A stretch of 64,000 nucleotides of DNA from Daedaleopsis sinensis (Eukaryota > Basidiomycota > Agaricomycetes > Polyporales > Polyporaceae). A program made the translations under genes and the position numbers. The notes beneath the pieces were generated by a model, which worked only from the letters and a program-made list of their open reading frames with translations, searched no databases and was not told the origin of the DNA. Where the stretch lies: the NCBI GenBank assembly GCA_033807695.1, contig CM066307.1:372001-436000 (forward strand), written 5' to 3'. Positions 3,200-60,259 of this stretch are shown here, in pieces; the stretch's first letter is position 1; every line of letters begins with the position of its first letter.

Positions 3200-3936
3200 G
3201 CTGGACATCTCTCGACCGAGTCGTTCAATAGAGTCCAATCCGGCGGCTTTGAGGGACTTAGAACTCGAGTTATCATTTGGTTATCGTTGTCTCCCGGTAT
3301 TGCCGCCCTTACGACCTGTACTTATATTACTGGTCTCCCTATGTACTAAACTCATGTCGTAACAGTGTGTCTTTTCATTCAAGTCATGTTTCATCTTCCT
3401 CCGCTCTGAGCACATTTGGGTTTTCTCTTTCGTGTTGTAGCGGCTATATACCTGGAATGAACGCTGTGATCACCAACAGATCCGCATCACCCTATGCATC
3501 GGCTAGCTATGAGCATCTACATAGCCAGTAGATCTAGAAGTGAGTATAGATGACGACAGTCCTTAAAAACATATGTGCGAGCACGCCGGATGACTTCAGG
3601 TTCGAACTCGATGGTAGTCATGCAAGCTCTGAACCTTCTCAGTTCATCTCCCTGTCGTAAACCTGGATGCAAACCTATCCAAACGAAGACTCGCAACTCA
3701 AAAATTGTTAGCGTTGCACGCTGTTGCACGACGTTCGAACGTCAGTTCAACTTACGTTAGAACAAGTTGAATTCGAAGCAGGGCGGGGCGCCACAGGGCG
3801 CCGCACAAGGGTGCGATGTGCACGTGACATACTCTGCAGGAAATTTCGGAGAGCTTCATACCGGAACTCGATCCTGCCCACCCACTTCCATGCCCTTCTA
3901 GTCTATCTGCTTGTACCTCAGACTGTCTGTACGACT
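3200..3936. other. Intergenic region upstream of DBP9
   Basis: No supportable gene. It holds the 3' flank of the P-loop gene and the promoter and 5' leader of DBP9. Confidence 0.5.
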
Positions 3937-6649
3937 ATGCCGGACGCTCGTCTCGTCGACCCAAAAGCGACCTTCGCGTCGTTCAACCACATGCTGGACG
4001 GGCGCATACTGCGTGCTCTCGCGGACATGGGCTTCGCTCGCCCGACTCTTGTTCAAACGAAGGCGATACCGCTCGCGCTGGAGAACAAGGACATACTTGC
4101 GAGAGCGAGGACGGGCAGCGGGAAGACCGCGGCATACTGCATCCCGGTCGTGCAGAAGGTCTTGAAAGCCAAGGAGGTGAGTAGTCTTCTAGTAAACCGG
4201 GTACTGCTTGTAGTATCCCATTCCTGTGCCTACCAAGCCAGTTCTGCACATCGACATAACATGCGCGTCTTACCGCATGATTGCATACAAACTATCTTTC
4301 GCATGAAATTGACTTTTTGGCCGGCAGGAGCTCGAGGGCGACGATGCCAAGAGACAGTCCACACGCGCACTCATCCTTGTCCCGACAAGAGAGCTGGCCG
4401 AACAGGTGTCCGGACATCTTCGCAGTCTGTTGGCATACTGCGAGCAAGAAGTCACCGTAGCCAACGTCTCGGCCGGGACCACCACCCACCTGCAGAAGTG
4501 AGTGAGTCGCATCTCCACAACTCCACTGGGGAGACCTTTATCGACCAGCGGCGGACCAGGACACTGCTCTCCGACAGCCCCGATATCGTGATCGCCACTC
4601 CGTCCCGCGCTCTTGCGCTGCTCCAGTCCAAGGTACGCCCGCACTCTGGATGGCTCCGGAAACCGACCTCACACGGACCCAGAACCTGCAACTCCACTCG
4701 CTCGAGAGCCTAGTGATCGACGAGGCGGATCTCATACTCTCCTACGGGCATGACGAGGATGTCCGCCAGATATTCGGAGGAGGCTATCTGCCCAAGATCT
4801 TCCAGTCGTTCCTCATGAGCGCGACGATGACCGAGGACGTGGAAGCTCTCAAGGGACTCGCCCTGCGGAGCCCGGTGAGTGCATTACCTCTCGGAGACCG
4901 AAGAAGGGTTCACCGACGTGCGTTCCGCAGGTGATCCTCAAGCTCGAGGAAGACGAAGACGAAGCGGCGAACCTAACGCAGTACTCCGTCCGGTATGGCC
5001 AGTACCCACTTGAAAATCCGGCGACGGTGCTCATCTCTCGTCACAGCTGCTCCGAGGTCGACAAGTTCCTGTTGACGTACGTCATCCTCAAGCTCAAGCT
5101 CATCAAGGGCAAATGCATCCTGTTTGTGAACGACGTCGATCGGTGCTACCGCCTCAAGCTCTTCCTCGAGCAGTTCTCGATCAAGAGCTGTGTGCTCAAC
5201 TCGGAGCTGCCCCTTAACTCCAGGTATGTCTCCGCCGCGTGTGTGCGCACACGTCTGCGGCCGCGAGCTCGTCAGAGCGTCTGACTCACCGTCCCCCCGT
5301 CCGTGCCTCCGTCAGGTATCACACCGTCCAGGAATTCAACAAGGGCGTGTATGACTACATCATTGCCTCCGACGAGAGCTCTGGCCGCGCAGAACACGAC
5401 TCCGACTCCGACGAGGATGCCGAGGCGGCCCATGCCGGCGAAGACGACGGCGAGGACGATTGTAAGCTCCACTCCCTCGTTTCCTAAGATCTCCGTCGCT
5501 CACAGCGTCTCCAGTCATGTCCACTCAGCGGGACCCAGACCCGACCGCCGCCGAGGAAGATGAAGACGAAAACGAGGACGGTGATGCAGCGGACGCAAAC
5601 ACACAGGCAGACCCGAGCCCGTCCCAGCCTCTCAAACGGAAGCAGCGCGCAGACTCCCCCGCCGCCCCCTCCTCGAAGCCCAACAAGCGCAAGCGGCGCA
5701 AAGGCGGCGGCGGCGGGCCCGACGCCGAGTACGGCGTCTCGCGCGGCGTCGACTTCGTCGACGTCTCGTGCGTGATCAACTTCGACCTGCCCACCTCGTC
5801 GCGCGCATACACGCACCGCGTCGGGCGCACCGCGCGCGCGGGCCGCACGGGCATCGCGCTCTCCTTCGTTGTCCCCGCGGCGGAGTGGGGCAAGCACAAG
5901 GTCGTCGGGGGCGTGCCGAGCGCGCGGCGCGACGAGGCGGTGTTCGCGCGCATCGAGCGCGCGCAGGGCGCGCGCGGGAGCCTCGTGCGGGAGTATAACT
6001 TCGACATGCGCCAGGTCGAGGCGTTCCGGTACCGCATGGAGGACGCGCTGCGCGCGGTGACGCGGAGCGCGATCAAGGAGGCGCGTGTCAAGGAGCTCAA
6101 GACGGAGATCCTGAACTCGGACAAGCTCAAGGTGCGTTTCCAGCTCTTTCTCTCTTTCTATCGTTGTCTCCCTCTTTCTCTTTTCTCTCTCCCTCCTCCT
6201 CCCTACCTTCCTCCCTATCTTCCTCTCTATCTTCCATGTTTGTTTGGGGAGCGCAGACGGCGTGCTGACGGGACGGGCCGCAGGCGCATTTCGAGGACAA
6301 CCCGCTCGACCTCGAGTACCTCCGCCACGACAAGCCGCTGCACCCGACGCGGGTGCAGTCGCACATGAAGCACGTCCCGAAGTACCTGCTCCCCCGCATC
6401 GCGCCCGTGCCAGGCGGCGGGGCTATCACTGGGGCTGGGGCGGGGGCTGGGGCAGACGGCGCGAAGGATGGGGAGCAGGGCGACGCTGCTGCTACCGCGA
6501 CGGGCGCCGTGGGCTTCGTCCCGTTCAACAAGAACGGCGCGCGGGGGCGCGGGCGCGGAAGGGGCCGGGGACGGGGGCGTGGCGGGCGCGGCGGGAGCAC
6601 GGGGCGAGGCGGGAAGAAAAAGTCGGACCCGCTCAAAAAGTTCGGTTAG
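3937..6649 (+). CDS. DBP9: ATP-dependent RNA helicase Dbp9 (DEAD-box, 60S ribosome biogenesis)
   Basis: Eight exons join in phase (3937-4176, 4328-4497, 4560-4632, 4683-4874, 4931-5223, 5316-5461, 5515-6131, 6284-6649) to give about 698 aa. The helicase motifs appear in order: a Q-motif-like segment ([16 protein letters not shown]), motif I ARTGSGKT (residues 57-64), PTRELAE, DEAD (174-177), SAT (207-209), and motif [15 protein letters not shown]. An acidic then K/R-rich linker of about 100 residues splits the second RecA lobe between the FVNDVDR segment and the [16 protein letters not shown] segment. Such an insert is characteristic of Dbp9/DDX56. The C-terminus is a run of RG repeats followed by a basic end. 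Dbp9 is a nucleolar helicase needed for early steps of large-subunit assembly. The start is the first Met giving the conserved N-terminus. Confidence 0.93.
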
Positions 6650-7158
6650 ATCGTGCGCATCAGTATGCATGTATCTTCGTCGAGGACGAGATTGGTGTAT
6701 CCATTTGTATCCATCTCTAACAGTGACTAGTGAAGTCCTGTATTCACGACCATGTGTCATTTCCTTTGTTTTCGCGCGTGCTGGGGCCTGAAACCGAGGA
6801 AATGGTAAATATCCAACGACTGTCCCTCCAATTTCCTCAGATGGGGGAATAGCCTTTGCCCGTCGTGATTGGAATGAAATACAAGACCACGGCGCCGATA
6901 CAGGTCAACGAAATTATTGCGTTGGATCAAGTTGGATAAGAGATGTTGCCGATATATGATGAGTGGATGTCGATACAAATGCTGAGTAGTATACATGTGT
7001 ATGGTAGATGACTGTACTCTAGGAGAGTTAGTTATAGGGATGGGATGTTGGAGCTTCGTGCCTTCGTGAGTCACTTCGTATGCTTATCGTGAGGAGGTTG
7101 TAACGTAGTTGTCAACAATAATTGGGCGGTGCGGGCGCTGCATTCGGGACCGACGTCT
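6650..7158. other. Convergent intergenic region (DBP9 / aquaporin 3' ends)
   Basis: The two flanking genes end facing each other here. No coding potential or structured element recognised; it presumably holds both 3' UTRs. Confidence 0.5.
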
Positions 7159-52844: not shown

Positions 52845-52962
52845 ATGGCCGAGAGATACCGATGCCCCCCATCTGTTGTCGAGGCTGTACAACAGCTTGT
52901 AGACGCAAATTTCCCAACTCTCAACCCAAATGTTTTCCTGCACAACGACATAATGCCTGCCC
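52845..52962 (+). pseudogene. 5' half of gene X (unit 3), cut by the Plavaka insertion
   Basis: It begins MAERYRCPPSVVEAVQQLVD and matches the complete copy up to FLHNDIM, then runs into the transposon terminus at 52963. The remainder resumes at 60260 beyond the element. Confidence 0.8.
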
Positions 52963-52991
52963 CATCTGCAAAATCCCCCCGGGCAGATGAG
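52963..52991 (+). repeat. Left terminal inverted repeat of the Plavaka element
   Basis: 29 bp, identical to the reverse complement of the right end. It is itself nearly self-complementary: CATCTGC at its outer edge pairs with GCAGATG near its inner edge. Confidence 0.9.
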
Positions 52992-53144
52992 TGCTACATT
53001 AGAGCTCATGCAAGCAAATCTCAGCCTACACGCTATTTATCCACTAACCTACGGCTCTCGCTCACTCGCGCGCAGATAATCTGACTACCGGAAGAATACG
53101 TGAGATAACCTGTAGTTTGATGTACTACGTGAGATGCATTACAA

Positions 53145-56100
53145 CTATATAAGTGTCATAAACATATGCATGTCGCTATATGGGCTGACGAAGAAGCTGT
53201 CGCACTGGTCAAGAACGTTGCTGCTTGTCCAGTCGCGGGGAACAACTGCGGGGAACTCGGGATACAAATGACATGAACGGCGTATGTGGCGGATTTCAAT
53301 AACACTTGCGAGCCGTTCGGAATTTGGGCCCCGGCACCGCGAAATCTTGTACAACCCGTGGACCGGGTGTGGCTGCGTGAACGCAGTGAACCACTCCACA
53401 TACGCGAGGTATCCGGGTGGAATGAGACCTCGAAACAGCATGTCTTGACGGCCTTTCTTGGGAAAAGGGATCTTGAAGATCAACCGGATACGCCCAACGC
53501 GATAGCCTGATTAGAAATTTGACATTCAATGTGCTCGCACATAGTAGACAGGTCATTAAGTACATACCGTGTACTCCTGTCTCGTTTCCGGTGCCTTCGT
53601 TGACCAGAACGGTGTCGAATCGGGCAGGGACTACACGGCCTTGCTTGTCCATCCGTGCAGGCCTGGCATATGCGACATCGCGAGCATCGTCCATAACACC
53701 GAGTTGTTGCGCATCTTCGAGAACGAACTTGATCTTGTGGAACACCGGCATGGTCCGGAAGGGGATACACAGCCCTTCCGCAGCGCGTTCGACTTCAGCA
53801 TCCGTGTACTCCGAATGGCGGTAGCGAACAACGAAGCGGGCTAGTGCATCACGGAGAAACTGAGCGCCGTAGTCGTTAGCAGCAGTGTCGAAGGAGACCG
53901 CTTTGACAGATGGGTACTTGGCCATGTGAGTTCGCGTGAGACGGAGAGTTTGAAGGTTGGGAGCATGAGAGTCGCGAAGAGAGCGCGGTACTTGGTCGAG
54001 GTCTTGCGCACCAGAGGTTTGACGGAGGCGCCAGGTGATATGGATGTCATGCCGGAGTATCTTCTCTCGACGCTCCAGCCAGAGCGTCATTTGGGGAAAC
54101 TCGTCCTTCTTGTTTGTAGCGCGGTAGGCGTCCTTGGCAAAGTCTATATGAAGACGCTCGGTATATTGCGTGTCATAGTTGTCCGTGGTGCCAAAAAGAG
54201 TGATTGAGAGGGGGTAGTGATCGAAGGAATGTAGTTTCGGAAGGCGGAAATGAATTCTAATGCCGAGTTGTTGAAAGATTTCCTTGTTCGCATGAAATCG
54301 TTTGAGAGCGTCGCCAAGGAGATGAAGAGTCTCAGTGGTATGAGCAGGGTATTGTGAGAAGTAGAGGAAGTCGAGGAGACCACGAACAGCACGGAGAAGG
54401 CGGACAGGTGAAAGGCCGTCAGGGAGTCGAAGGCCAATGATCAAACCGAGTAGATAGCGACACATGTCTGCATGCTCTTTGCCGGTGACTCGTTGAAGCT
54501 TTGTGATGCCCTTGAGGAACAAGCGGATGTTGTGATTCGGAGGGAATCGTCTAGCCCGAGCGTCGAGTTCCTCGGGTCCATACGCAAGCGGGCTCTTCAG
54601 CCATTCGATGAGATGCTTGACCACCCCCTGATAGAGTTGATGGAGAATATCGGGAGTGATAGAGCGGTAGATGTCGACAAATGGGAGGTCGATCCAGTAA
54701 GGGTTATATATTGGTTTGACCCTAGCAGCTTTGCACGCTCGCGCGAACTTCAGTGGGTCGTCGTCAGCGAGCTTGAGCGCTTCGAGGACGCGACCGAGGT
54801 CACGGAGTGGGCGTTCAGGATCAAACTCGTTCCCGACATCGTTGCGGGCGATTGGACACTTTGGACACTCGCCATTCTTGCAACCGGCTGCGAGAATCTG
54901 TTCGAGATAGTCGCCAACATGGATCGCGAAGATCGGATGCCCTCGACGAAGTACACCGTCACCACTCGCGATCTCGATGCCTTGAATTCCGGCTTGTCGA
55001 AGAGGGGCGAGAACGAAGCTCAGGACTCCGTGGTAGAGGTTTGCAAGCATACGGCGGCGAGAGGTGACACTGGTGATGTGTTCGAGACATGTGGTGGGGA
55101 TGTAGGCGAGGAGGATGTGTCCTCGACGAGACGGCTTGCGCCGCACTTCTTTCGGGAGGTTGCCGATCGTAAGGTAGACTGGATAAGCGGTCTTGCTACC
55201 AAATAGCGTGAGCTGGGTCTTGTCAGAAGATATGATAACAGGGATAATAGTTGCACCCGGACAGAGCCTCTCGACCTGTTTCTGCATCCAATATGCTTAA
55301 GATCCTTTGTAAGCGGTAAGAATGGGGTGAAGTGGAGCTCACCTGCGTGTACCACCACCAATCTCCGGTGTGCATGTCAAAATATACTCGCATTTTATGG
55401 TCGGGGTCAGCGTAATGTCTTTCCGGCTCAAAGACGAGAATACCCGCAAAGTCTGGATCACCGAACAAGGCACGAATGCATGCAATGATGTCACGGAAGA
55501 AGAACTCGTAGCCTTCGTCACCGATCACAATTTCATGTCGAACGAAACGAGGACGCACAGAGGGGATGTCGCGGTCAATGATCGCATTGAGCTCAAGAGA
55601 TGTGCGATACGAAAGTCCTAAGGACTCTACAAGCTGTTGGCGAATGAGAATATGTCCTATCGCCACCGATACACAAAGGAGACGCACCCCAGGTATGCTT
55701 AGCAATTCCGTGACGGCAGTGGATCCAGGCCCTCGCATCTTGGCCCATCTAGCTATATCCCAATCCATTCGGGAAATGAAGGGGGCGTACGGATTGTCTG
55801 AGTGCTCGTGCATACTGAAGGACGTCTGGTAGCTTTGATTTGATGAATGAGCTGTTCGGGTGTTGTTTAGAGGGGCCCCTGCAAGACCGCCTGGATAGTG
55901 AACGACGTGCGTCTTGAGGCGTAGACGAGCCTCGGCTTGCTGGCGCAGCTGAGTGTTGAGCAGGAACCCGTCTGCTTCTGGTTCCTGCTCGTTTCTCGGC
56001 ACGCTAGAGTCAGCCGCAGGCTCCTGATGAGATGCTGGTAGTGGTGGTTCCCATCCTGTCGCGTCGTCATCCTCAGACCGGTAACCTTCTCCATCCTCCG

Positions 56101-56440
56101 GTTCTTCGTCAGATCCCCACCTACTACCATCCTCCTCCCCATTGCCTTCCCGGAGTTCCTCCTCTGCCGAGCTGTCGTATTCATCGTAATCGTCGAAGTC
56201 TGCCGGAAAGTACTCGCCAAAGTAGTCACCAGCAAAGTCGTTCGCAGGAGACACTGGCTCAGCACGGGGTGACGACTGTGGCTCTGGGGCTACAGAGACC
56301 GGCGAGGGGGGTGGCGAGCGATACTGTTCCTGAGCTCTGCGAACAGCAACACAGCGGGGGTCTCTGGCGAGGCGTAGATGGATAATCAAGCCTGAGAGGG
56401 AGAATGAGCCGCCGCATCCATCACAGAGTGCGGATGCCAT
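53145..56440 (-). CDS. Plavaka transposase
   Basis: Three exons (56440-55343, 55281-53568, 53506-53145) join in phase to 1057 aa without internal stops. The N-terminus has a C2HC zinc-finger-like pattern (CDGCGGSFSLSGLIIHL, then DPRC, residues 6-30), followed by an acidic, disordered stretch. The core contains Plavaka-type blocks: PYAPFISRMDWDIARWAKM, YTQKQVERLCPGATIIPVII, SSDKTQLTLFGSKTAYPVYL, LYHGVLSFVLAPLRQAGIQG, GDYLEQILAAGCKNGECPKC, DIYRSITPDILHQLYQGVVK, DNYDTQYTERLHIDFAKDAY. The C-terminus has LAYVEWFTAF. An RNase H-fold DDE catalytic core is expected for this family. The intact frame suggests the element may be autonomous. Confidence 0.88.
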
Positions 56441-56751
56441 TAGTCGCAAGCTGAAGTTGGCTGATCGGTAGTTGCTAGCCAGTACGAGCTGAGTCAGAGT
56501 GTTCGCCCAGTGAGCCCAGCACGGACAGAGCGTAGAGTCGCGAGTGTATGCAGAGGCAGAAGAACGTTCGGAACCGGTGAAGTTAGGTATCCGAAAACAC
56601 ACTTAGTACCTCCAAATTGGGAGAGCATGGGCAACAGGGCGTTGCTAAGCGCCACGTCAACCATTCTCTCCCTCCTCCCATTACCTGTATCGTTCAACTT
56701 ACTCTAACCATCCCTCTCCCATAATCAAACTTAATTCCTCTGCAGACGTCG

Positions 56752-59628
56752 ATGAGTCGCAGACGTCGTCAACCTGTCGTCGTCCTTTCGGACAATGAGG
56801 ATGACAGTGACGCTGGAAAAGCGACTCAGCCTGCACGTACTCAAGATTCAACTTCGACTGCAGATCAAATCAATGAAGACAGCGCTGGCTCGCAAGCATC
56901 CACAACGACTGGACATAGGCGTACTCACCTAGGCTCTCATGCAGACTTGACTGTTTGACTAACCTATCCTCTTCGACAGCACGTCGTCAGGCCCTCAAGA
57001 ATGCCCTAAACGACAAAGGTCAGTAAACGGCATCCTTTCACTTCCTTCTTCCTGTCTATAGCCCAGTCATCTTTACAGTATGGGCGACACTTGCCCCACG
57101 CAAGCGTCAAAGGCACGAAACTTCCCGACTTGATGCAGTGCCGTCCAATGAGGTCAATAGCGCTGATCGCGCTCAAGGTAAGACTACGATCAGCCCGAGG
57201 CCACACTTGCACGAGTGTGATACGATACTCACCATGATTCCTCAGGTGTTGCCCAGGACACATCTCCGGAAGCCAGTGGTGGCGCTCGAACTCGCGAACT
57301 TACAGCTGCACAGTATCGTGCACCCGTCATGGCTTCCGACGACGAGGAACAGCCGGTCAGCATGGGCTTGGTAATCCGTAATGACCGTCGGAGTGCACAG
57401 GTCGGTGGTTCAGATGCGAAGAAGGGCAAGGCTGTAAGTTCACACTTCCCTGCCGTAATACTGAGGTTTCTCACCGATCGGTACCTTTAGCCTGAACGCG
57501 CACCCTCCTCTGGTCAGTCCCAGCACGTCAAACCTTCCCATGGCTCCCAGTCCCCTCCCAACCCAGTTCATACCGAGGAGCAGTCTTCTGGCGAAGATGA
57601 CGATCGCTCATATCATCCTGACGACGAGGACGGCGAGCACTCCGAGCCGTCTGACGATGAGTTTGAGCGCGTTCAAGGGCACACGTTACGTCAGATGCTC
57701 GCGTCAGAGGTGAGTCGACCTATTTCCTAAATCTGTATTCTCTCTTTGCACTTACTTACATGCGTGGTAGCGCCCTGCTTTGCACATTACGACTCAAGGC
57801 ACCTCCGAGGATGGCGAACAGGCTACGCAACAGAACCATAGCACTCGGCGGGCGGCCCGTGAGGCTAGTGCCGGCCCCAGCAAGAACGCTCGTCAGGATC
57901 AAGCGGAAACTGTACAACAGTTACGCTCCCCCGGTGCCTCGTCACACGCTGTAAGTCTGTGTTACAGGAAACTTTAGTATTGCTTATATCTGTATACTGA
58001 CATTATTGTGATTCGGTTGGCGTAGACATCCAAGAAGCGTAGCGGTGACGACCGCAGTGACACCGAAGACGAGTCTGCGCTTGTAAGTACCTATATGGCC
58101 AATATTCACTCGCAATATTAACATTGTCTATCCATATACTCAGCGCAAGAAGCCGAAACTCCCTGACGACAGACAAGATGTCGCACGCGCCAAAGGCAAG
58201 GCCAAGGACGGATCAGGTAATCCGCGCAGCACTTCGAAGTCCAGTACGAGCTCTGCCGCCAAGCCGAAGGCTGTCACGGCAGCAGCACGCCGACGCGAAC
58301 AGGAGGTGCTTACACGACTCAGCACTCTGAATGTATGGCTGAACTGATGCCATATTATTGCATAGATCCCAGTCATTCGAGAAGTTCTCGCTCAGAGCAG
58401 CACAATCGCTGCGAAAGCTGAGATCACTCGTGATGAAGTAAGAACTCTACCCATCTTAAGACTCATGTACCTGTGATTCGTCAATGACCGTCCATCACAC
58501 AGCCTGACGTCGAACCCGAGCAACAACCGCTGGATCCCAACGATGAGGATGAGCGCATCCACATCGTACCTCCAAGCCGACCGGGCGGGAAGCTGGCTCT
58601 GACAGAACAGTTCCCTCGTGTTCGCAAGACTCTCGGGCTCGCCATCGACACGACACAAGCGGAGCTGCTACTCAAAGATGCATTCCCAGACGGGCCTGGC
58701 AAGTATACGGAGCTCGTCCGCCGCATTCTCGTAAAATCCGCCAGACGTCTTGGCTACCAGGAGCTCGCAGGTCGAATCAAGACAACAGATGATTACGCGC
58801 TCTTTCTGTGCCAGATTGTATGTGTCGCCATCTTCTTAATCCCTCGTACTGATCATCTGCACTACCTACAGCCGGTCCAGCGGATCTCGACATTTAGGGG
58901 GAAGGTCAAAACCGTTACCGATGGCATCGTTGCCTCCGCCTACAACCTCAAGCTCGGCGACGAGGACCACGTGAACTGGCTCAAGACGAAAGTCCGGTAT
59001 ATCTATCCCCACGACTATGAGGTGACCTCTGTCCATGCTGCTCGTTTACGAGTCATTTATACTAACCCTCTTTTACAGAACAATAAGGTCAAAGGTAATG
59101 ACCCGTACGGGCTCCCCATCTTCGCGCAGGTCATGCGCACCCTTTGGTTCCGCTCGACGAAAGGATTTGGATGGGCCATCGCCGACAAGTTCACATCCTC
59201 CTTGCCTGACAAGCCCGGCGAGCGCGAAATTCCGGCCCCAATGCTCGCACTCGTTGCCACTGCGGTACGTCATGCTCAGCTATGTCTGACCCCGGACGCT
59301 GAAGGCTGATAATCTGGTAGATTTATGCATCTATCGAGGACCACCGGTACGACGTCTTTGAGGCCAGTGACTTCGCTGCGAACGACTTCGCTGGTGCCTA
59401 CAACGAGAACATCCTCGTTTTGTCGGCAATCCAGCGACAGGGTCTTGTAGAGTACCACGACTTGTTGCATCAGCTCTATCTCGACGTTTGGTATGTATCG
59501 AAATTAATCTTCAGTTGCATTTGCTTACTCTATTGTCTAGTGGAACCAAGTCGTCCTCGCGCGCTCAGCCGGGCAAAGAAAACGACGTGCTTGAGTTCCT
59601 GGACGTGAAAGGAATGGGCCGCAAGTAG
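56752..59628 (+). CDS. DUF6532-family protein carried inside the Plavaka element
   Basis: A multi-exon gene starting MSRRRRQPVVVLSDNEDDSD and ending DVLEFLDVKGMGRK. The N-terminal half is acidic, Ser/Glu/Gln-rich and probably disordered; it contains a SUMO-interaction-like core (VVVLSDNEDD) and basic patches. The C-terminal domain has AELLLKDAFPDGPGKYTELV, RISTFRGKVKTVTDGIVASA, KTKVRYIYPHDYE, YGLPIFAQVMRTLWFRSTKG, PAPMLALVATAIYASIEDHR and AGAYNENILVLSAIQRQGLV, matching the DUF6532 domain common in Agaricomycetes. It is divergent from the transposase, with about 310 bp between the starts. A TnpA-like accessory role or cargo status is inference. Confidence 0.8.
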
Positions 59629-60228
59629 TCCGAGTCGTGTTCAAGCCTCATATACCCGTCACCCCGGGCCCCCGCTGCTTCAATTATTGTACCTCAAGTT
59701 TTCTATCGTCTCCTCGTGCTGCGTATCTCGACATATGCCAGTGATATGATGACCTCCCCATATCTGGTCATCGTATACCCACACCTCTCCGATTGTCTGA
59801 CTCATAGTGTCCTTATTCTCACTCATATCTCCGTACTCGTTGCCGCTCCTTTCTGACAGTTCATATACGCACAGCTGACAATGCCCTCTTAGGCTTATGG
59901 TATCTACTAGTAGCTCTGGTATCTTCGAGTACATAGTACCCTTCGTCTCGTTTCACCCAAGGCACCCGATGTCCGGTAGAGCCTCACTCAATCCTTCGCT
60001 GCATACATCACTCATCCGTAGTATGTTTTCAATACAATATGACCGTTTAATGTACATCCTAGTGTGCTCATCGAACGAAAATGGGTGATAACATGCGGCA
60101 GATAATACACTAATACAGGTATAACTATCGCTTATGCTGCTCCTTTTCGGGGGGGACATAAGATTAGTACTCACCGGCCTAACTCGCTCATGAGCGCTAC
60201 ATTAGCTCTTATGATCTCTCCCCGAGCT

Positions 60229-60257
60229 CTCATCTGCCCGGGGGGATTTTGCAGATG
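60229..60257 (-). repeat. Right terminal inverted repeat of the Plavaka element
   Basis: 29 bp, perfect reverse complement of 52963-52991. A subterminal GCTACATTAG-type motif follows inside each end (about 52993 and 60196). Confidence 0.9.
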
Positions 60258-60259
60258 CC

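Follow-up and report, generated by a model that had tools for sequence, protein, structure and literature searches.

A DUF6532 gene is an integral and probably working part of a Plavaka transposon lineage in Daedaleopsis sinensis

We analyzed a 64,000-nucleotide stretch of contig CM066307.1 from the polypore Daedaleopsis sinensis (the window; positions are counted from its first letter) and found that positions 52963–60257 are a complete Plavaka transposon of 7,295 bp with two genes, one for the transposase and one for a protein of DUF6532, an uncharacterised family of mushroom-forming fungi. DUF6532 is an integral member of this element, inside its bounds, and here probably functions as one of its components. 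The original prediction, made from the letters of the window, had proposed that DUF6532 genes spread through carriage by Plavaka elements, as an accessory DNA-binding protein or as cargo. Carriage is supported by this one genome at full depth, where 26 of the 29 DUF6532 loci have a Plavaka partner. Of the two proposed roles, we prefer the accessory one because of the gene's constancy in the lineage, its co-divergence with the transposase, and the purifying selection acting on it; cargo fits less well.

The element is bounded by 29-bp terminal inverted repeats (TIRs) at 52963–52991 (plus strand) and 60229–60257 (minus strand). As predicted, the two are identical, and we could add an exact 2-bp target site duplication (TSD), CC, directly outside them (52961–52962 and 60258–60259). 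The full arms extend to 57 nt (52963–53019 and 60201–60257) and match at 81%, with all differences lying inward of the identical outermost 29 nt. The left TIR starts with CATCTGC and has GCAGATG at its positions 21–27, the end of its first 27 bases (52963–52989), so each end of the element could fold back on itself. TIRs with a TSD of 2 to 3 bp mark Plavaka, and this element has both; CACTA/EnSpm elements, in contrast, are marked by CACTA termini and a 3-bp TSD, neither of which is present here (CATCTG ends, 2-bp TSD). Across the genome, the left end matched only the element's own two ends, the right one in part; with no further copy, the family looks single-copy in the assembly.

The transposase gene (53145–56440, minus strand) has three exons, 56440–55343, 55281–53568, and 53506–53145. 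Its spliced frame gives 1,057 aa with no stop, as the original prediction had it, and PF18759 matches on either side of the first intron at 263.6 and 77.9 bits (cut-off 26.3). Head to head with it, across a divergent intergenic region of 311 bp between the two start codons (56441–56751), lies the DUF6532 gene (56752–59628, plus strand), which had been described as multi-exon and divergent within the same TIRs and proved to be so. We modeled 14 exons: 56752–56920, 56980–57018, 57079–57177, 57246–57433, 57491–57709, 57771–57950, 58026–58082, 58144–58305, 58366–58437, 58503–58817, 58872–59021, 59079–59264, 59321–59490, and 59541–59628, with the exon 8 donor shifted by hand to leave a 60-nt intron. 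The spliced frame again contains no stop, and its 697-aa product matches PF20149 (DUF6532) at 90.9 bits (E 2.1e-24, cut-off 24). The conserved domain is the last part of this protein and corresponds to exons 10 to 13 (58503–59490, plus strand).

Scanning the 51.6-Mb assembly, we obtained 158 matches to PF18759 and 58 to PF20149, which were grouped into 66 Plavaka clusters and 29 DUF6532 loci. The clusters were built from 69 listed matches, with the remaining listed ones taken by eye as further exons; 123 of 193 PF18759 candidates were scored and the matches listed in part, so that counts of weak clusters are lower bounds. Twenty-six of the 29 DUF6532 loci were divergent to a Plavaka core 2.3–5.4 kb away; under uniform random placement, the chance of this many divergent pairs within 6 kb is ∼1.6e-45. 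Counted from the transposase side, a divergent DUF6532 lay within 6 kb in 25 of the 29 strong clusters, defined as those with at least 269 bits (the next best had 198). In a 26th strong cluster, on C6, the transposase is split, and DUF6532 stands beside its other part. That part was the only weak cluster with a DUF6532 partner among at least 37, and none of the other 36 had one. At this C6 locus (L018; G000:C6:631038-644616), ∼9.3 kb of other sequence splits the transposase, with DUF6532 on the near side.

Three DUF6532 loci had no Plavaka partner. The one at C1:5307383 (L037; G000:C1:5306901-5308900) is a solo gene with no Plavaka match nearby, whose protein is nearly identical to that of the paired locus L016, and it could be what is left of a transposon or an initial move toward independence. 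The second, at C2:4364560, lies 25 kb from a strong Plavaka cluster in divergent orientation, and the third, at C3:3009427, is a fragment. Conversely, DUF6532 pairing does not extend to every Plavaka. The 36 weaker clusters without a partner include a third Plavaka lineage (L035; G000:C8:3401201-3407200) with a CATCAGG left end, at most 29% identity to both of the paired transposase clades described below, and no DUF6532. The clusters at C4:3875k and C9:412k have a match pattern like that of L035.

The original prediction had put forward counting DUF6532 genes inside versus outside the repeats as a check. We compared 25 further pair loci besides the window element, 26 in all, accepting as bounds CATC..GATG ends that matched in at least 12 of 15 positions and had a direct TSD. 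Such bounds enclosed both genes in 18 of the 26 loci; L029 (11 of 15 plus a TSD) was counted as the 19th, and the TSD was 2 bp in every one. DUF6532 thus lies inside in the 19 loci with clear bounds rather than being absent from nearly all other full-length elements. Bounds that left DUF6532 outside were found in 2 of 26 loci, the siblings L013 and L026, where outer bounds are present too, and seven loci had no clear bounds (L010, L012, L016, L018, L027, L030, and L033). When each of 25 loci was shuffled five times by single nucleotides, 1 of the 125 shuffled sequences reached the bounds rule.

The bounded elements measure 6.3–8.3 kb (median 7,364 bp), and their DUF6532 core ends 0.6–1.0 kb before the right end. 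CATCA stands at both ends of 14 of the 19; three (L013, L014, and L026) combine a CATCT end with a CATCA end, and the window element and L020 have CATCT at both ends (CATCT..AGATG). This mix indicates that the fifth terminal base drifts. Words of seven bases repeated at least three times were present in the terminal 250 bp of 18 of the 19 elements, versus an expectation of 7.1 based on interiors and a count of 9 of 19 in flanks. Under four settings, the excess of subterminal repeats was 2.3- to 4.1-fold over the interior expectation and 1.7- to 3.5-fold over flanks; it was weak in the window element. These terminal repeated words agree, weakly, with a partner like TnpA of CACTA elements.

The two proteins have diverged together. 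Over 25 loci (all 26 pairs but L018, whose transposase is split), amino acid distances of transposase and DUF6532 were correlated with a Mantel r of 0.92 (0 of 9,999 permutations as high), and the nearest neighbor agreed between the two proteins in 16 of 25 pairs. The transposases form two deep clades that differ at 65% of positions, with DUF6532 in both, and the correlation held within clade I (r = 0.917, 15 pairs) and clade II (r = 0.97, 10 pairs; 0 of 9,999 permutations in each). Because these pairs are copies in one genome, the species tree does not explain the correlation. For the proposed check of whether the two trees agree, run here on protein distances, the two sets of distances agree.

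We estimated the ratio of nonsynonymous to synonymous divergence (dN/dS, Nei-Gojobori) for 16 element pairs; the synonymous divergence of DUF6532 was below 1 in five of them, and some were saturated and gave no value. In these five, the ratios for the DUF6532 domain and the transposase, respectively, were 0.104 and 0.312 (six changes only) for L025/L022, 0.053 and 0.047 for L026/L013, 0.086 and 0.111 for L022/L015, 0.106 and 0.108 for L025/L015, and 0.390 (26 changes) and 0.144 for L028/L011. DUF6532 is constrained about like the transposase in four of the five comparisons, three of those four coming from one trio.

Beyond D. sinensis, a single-sequence search returned 26 relatives of the window DUF6532, and a profile search brought the total to 46, in Trametes, Cubamyces, Lenzites, Ganoderma, Lentinus, Earliella, Epithele, Polyporus, and Mycena. 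We compared these with the best 120 of 1,429 transposase relatives, inferring a shared contig from equal locus-tag prefix and equal contig size and choosing the partner by hand where two candidates shared a contig (P0005 and P0018). At least 28 of the 46 shared a contig with one of these 120 transposases; because the comparison covered 120 of 1,429, the other 18 cannot be judged. At least eight of the 28 pairs had consecutive gene numbers (two in T. cubensis, two in T. polyzona, and one each in T. versicolor, T. cinnabarina, T. pubescens, and Ganoderma sinense). Distances were again correlated over the 28 pairs (r = 0.857, 0 of 9,999 permutations, same nearest neighbor in 9 of 28), over the eight consecutive-number pairs (r = 0.923, 75 of 40,320 permutations), and over the seven pairs of T. 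polyzona alone (r = 0.852, 16 of 5,040 permutations). DUF6532 was the more divergent of the two proteins, with a mean distance over the 28 pairs of 64% versus 34% for the transposase. A pair in Mycena rosella points to Agaricales, its long contig (520,551 bases) being weaker proof than the five of 8.7–20 kb. The window DUF6532 could have nested among host genes unlinked to transposons; instead, it grouped with contig-linked sequences of Trametes cubensis, Cubamyces menziesii, and T. maxima (support 99/97).

Given these results, we consider it probable that DUF6532 is an obligate partner in the transposition of this Plavaka lineage, working like TnpA. Plavaka has been grouped with EnSpm/CACTA, Transib, Chapaev, and others as CMCT, and the transposase of CACTA/EnSpm is related to that of Plavaka (PMC12730594). 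The transposase of the CACTA element Spm/En depends on a second, multi-exon protein, TnpA (67 kd), which binds repeated subterminal motifs and is needed for transposition; the second proteins of different CACTA elements have little mutual similarity (PMC2613891). Formally, DUF6532 fits the description of such a partner: it is constantly present, co-diverging, constrained, faster-changing, and multi-exon. The comparison is one of function only, and the layouts differ: the window element has two divergent genes, whereas CACTA makes alternative transcripts of one unit. Another transposon-encoded two-protein system is that of Nuwa and related Harbinger elements, which combine a transposase with a Myb/SANT protein (PMC12730594); it belongs to another transposase superfamily, and the five DUF6532 proteins that we scanned gave no call for a Myb/SANT domain.

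We propose the following mechanism for this cut-and-paste transposon with two genes, a member of the lineage with CATC..GATG ends and a 2-bp TSD. The transposase would cut the element ends. The DUF6532 protein, presumably expressed from the shared divergent promoter region, would use its helical domain to bind the terminal or subterminal DNA of the element, the transposase, or both. It would thereby assist in assembling the synaptic complex, the part that TnpA plays for TnpD, the transposase of CACTA, and transposition would require it.

DUF6532 could instead be an anti-silencing factor or transcriptional regulator encoded by the element, comparable to VANC of VANDAL elements and integral to the transposon but outside the cutting complex, which we regard as possible but doubtful. 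A regulator would go well with the 311-bp divergent region, relatives have a long, mostly disordered N terminus with basic patches resembling nuclear localization signals, and TET/JBP genes have been described in fungal DNA transposons, including Plavaka of two species (PMC12730594). However, TET/JBP is sporadic among Plavaka families (PMC12730594), whereas DUF6532 is a fixture of both deep clades and diverges in step with the transposase. Moreover, a Pfam scan of five relatives called only DUF6532 above the cut-off in four (109–124 bits for PF20149); the fifth, the partial P0043 (72.9 bits), added a chromodomain.

Passenger cargo, host-useful or neutral and picked up by chance in the lineage, seems to us very unlikely. 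Second genes of transposons can be cargo and one solo copy exists, but that copy (L037) is a near copy of an element-borne gene, and the tree in which it was placed showed no distinct clade of host genes; the presence of DUF6532 in 25 to 26 of 29 strong clusters, across both deep clades, and its transposase-like dN/dS in four of five pairs also argue against this reading. We give practically no credence to a chance neighborhood of unrelated repeats or nested insertions, to which the seven loci without clear bounds might be taken to point. One fixed relation recurs in the 26 paired loci, a nearer Plavaka match in the other orientation was found in just two of them and came from neighboring copies, TIRs and TSDs enclose the pair, and consecutive gene numbers occur in six other species; the pairing counts refute chance.

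The TnpA-like role would fall to the DUF6532 domain, ∼250 residues that are all-helical in predicted models of the relatives P0006 and P0035. In P0006 (511 aa), the domain was predicted with confidence (mean predicted local distance difference test score of 89.9 in a second model), and the N-terminal part was mostly disordered. Foldseek and VIA-align fold searches with the domain model gave no match of weight. The domain is basic in the ten of 46 relatives for which we computed it (isoelectric point 8.4–9.7); that of the window protein is not. In the domain's consensus stretch QRIPTFRGxVRKL, R326 is invariant and R321 and I322 are nearly so (P0006 numbering), and a similar stretch (e.g., RVPHARGALKD) is kept in 8 of 11 models of the second clade, the others being L012, L018, and L021. 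We take this stretch as our best candidate for a DNA contact. Two relatives have additional parts: in P0043 (Trametes versicolor), DUF6532 is followed by the chromodomain, and in P0020 (Ganoderma leucocontextum), it is followed by a long C-terminal extension. Both are perhaps gene models fused with neighboring transposons.

The sibling elements L013 and L026 occupy different sites with different TSDs and differ at 404 alignment columns, 400 of them in two blocks: 190 at element positions 1040–2650, in the transposase core (162 of the 190 in one codon phase), and 210 at 5492–6818, in the DUF6532 domain, leaving four elsewhere. L022 and L025 differ mainly at 5670–6557, in the DUF6532 domain (80 columns), and at 3741–4222 (21 columns), with single columns elsewhere. 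Over most of the DUF6532 end, L011 and L028 are 92–99% alike; elsewhere the figure is mostly 70–92%. In these three sibling pairs, the DUF6532 block has a history separate from the rest of the element, for which gene conversion is the plain explanation. It is conceivable, though we think it unlikely, that DUF6532 is a specificity partner that stops cross-mobilization among the many Plavaka families of one genome, its domain and the transposase core being matched modules; we retain this idea because of the double block in L013/L026, which looks as if the pair had been swapped together.

The original Plavaka paper is that of Iyer et al. 2014. PlavakaB shares with the window element a PF18759 transposase, CATC..GATG ends, and a 2-bp TSD; its ends are CATCA..TGATG versus CATCT..AGATG here, and its account, in the text on these families, gives the transposase, with TET/JBP in two species, and does not mention DUF6532 (PMC12730594). 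A study that lists DUF6532 and Plavaka in one row, among domains found only in the parasitic or symbiotic fungi of its comparison, draws no link between the two in the sections consulted (PMC8955403). We did not find the pairing in the portions of the literature consulted under either name, and an earlier account that does not use the domain name is possible. If DUF6532 is a transposon part, then lifestyle differences in DUF6532 content measure transposon load, and such genes should be masked before gene contents are compared. Plavaka would also become a testable two-component transposition system, with ∼25 co-evolving protein pairs in one genome as a natural set for studying how transposon specificities separate.

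We also observed a 2.03-kb non-autonomous derivative (L036; G000:C8:3516394-3518425) with TSD GT and ends like those of the L022/L025/L015 family. Likely copies of the same type, at G000:C9:918226-920254 and G000:C11:344454-346482, were seen solely as paired end motifs of equal spacing.
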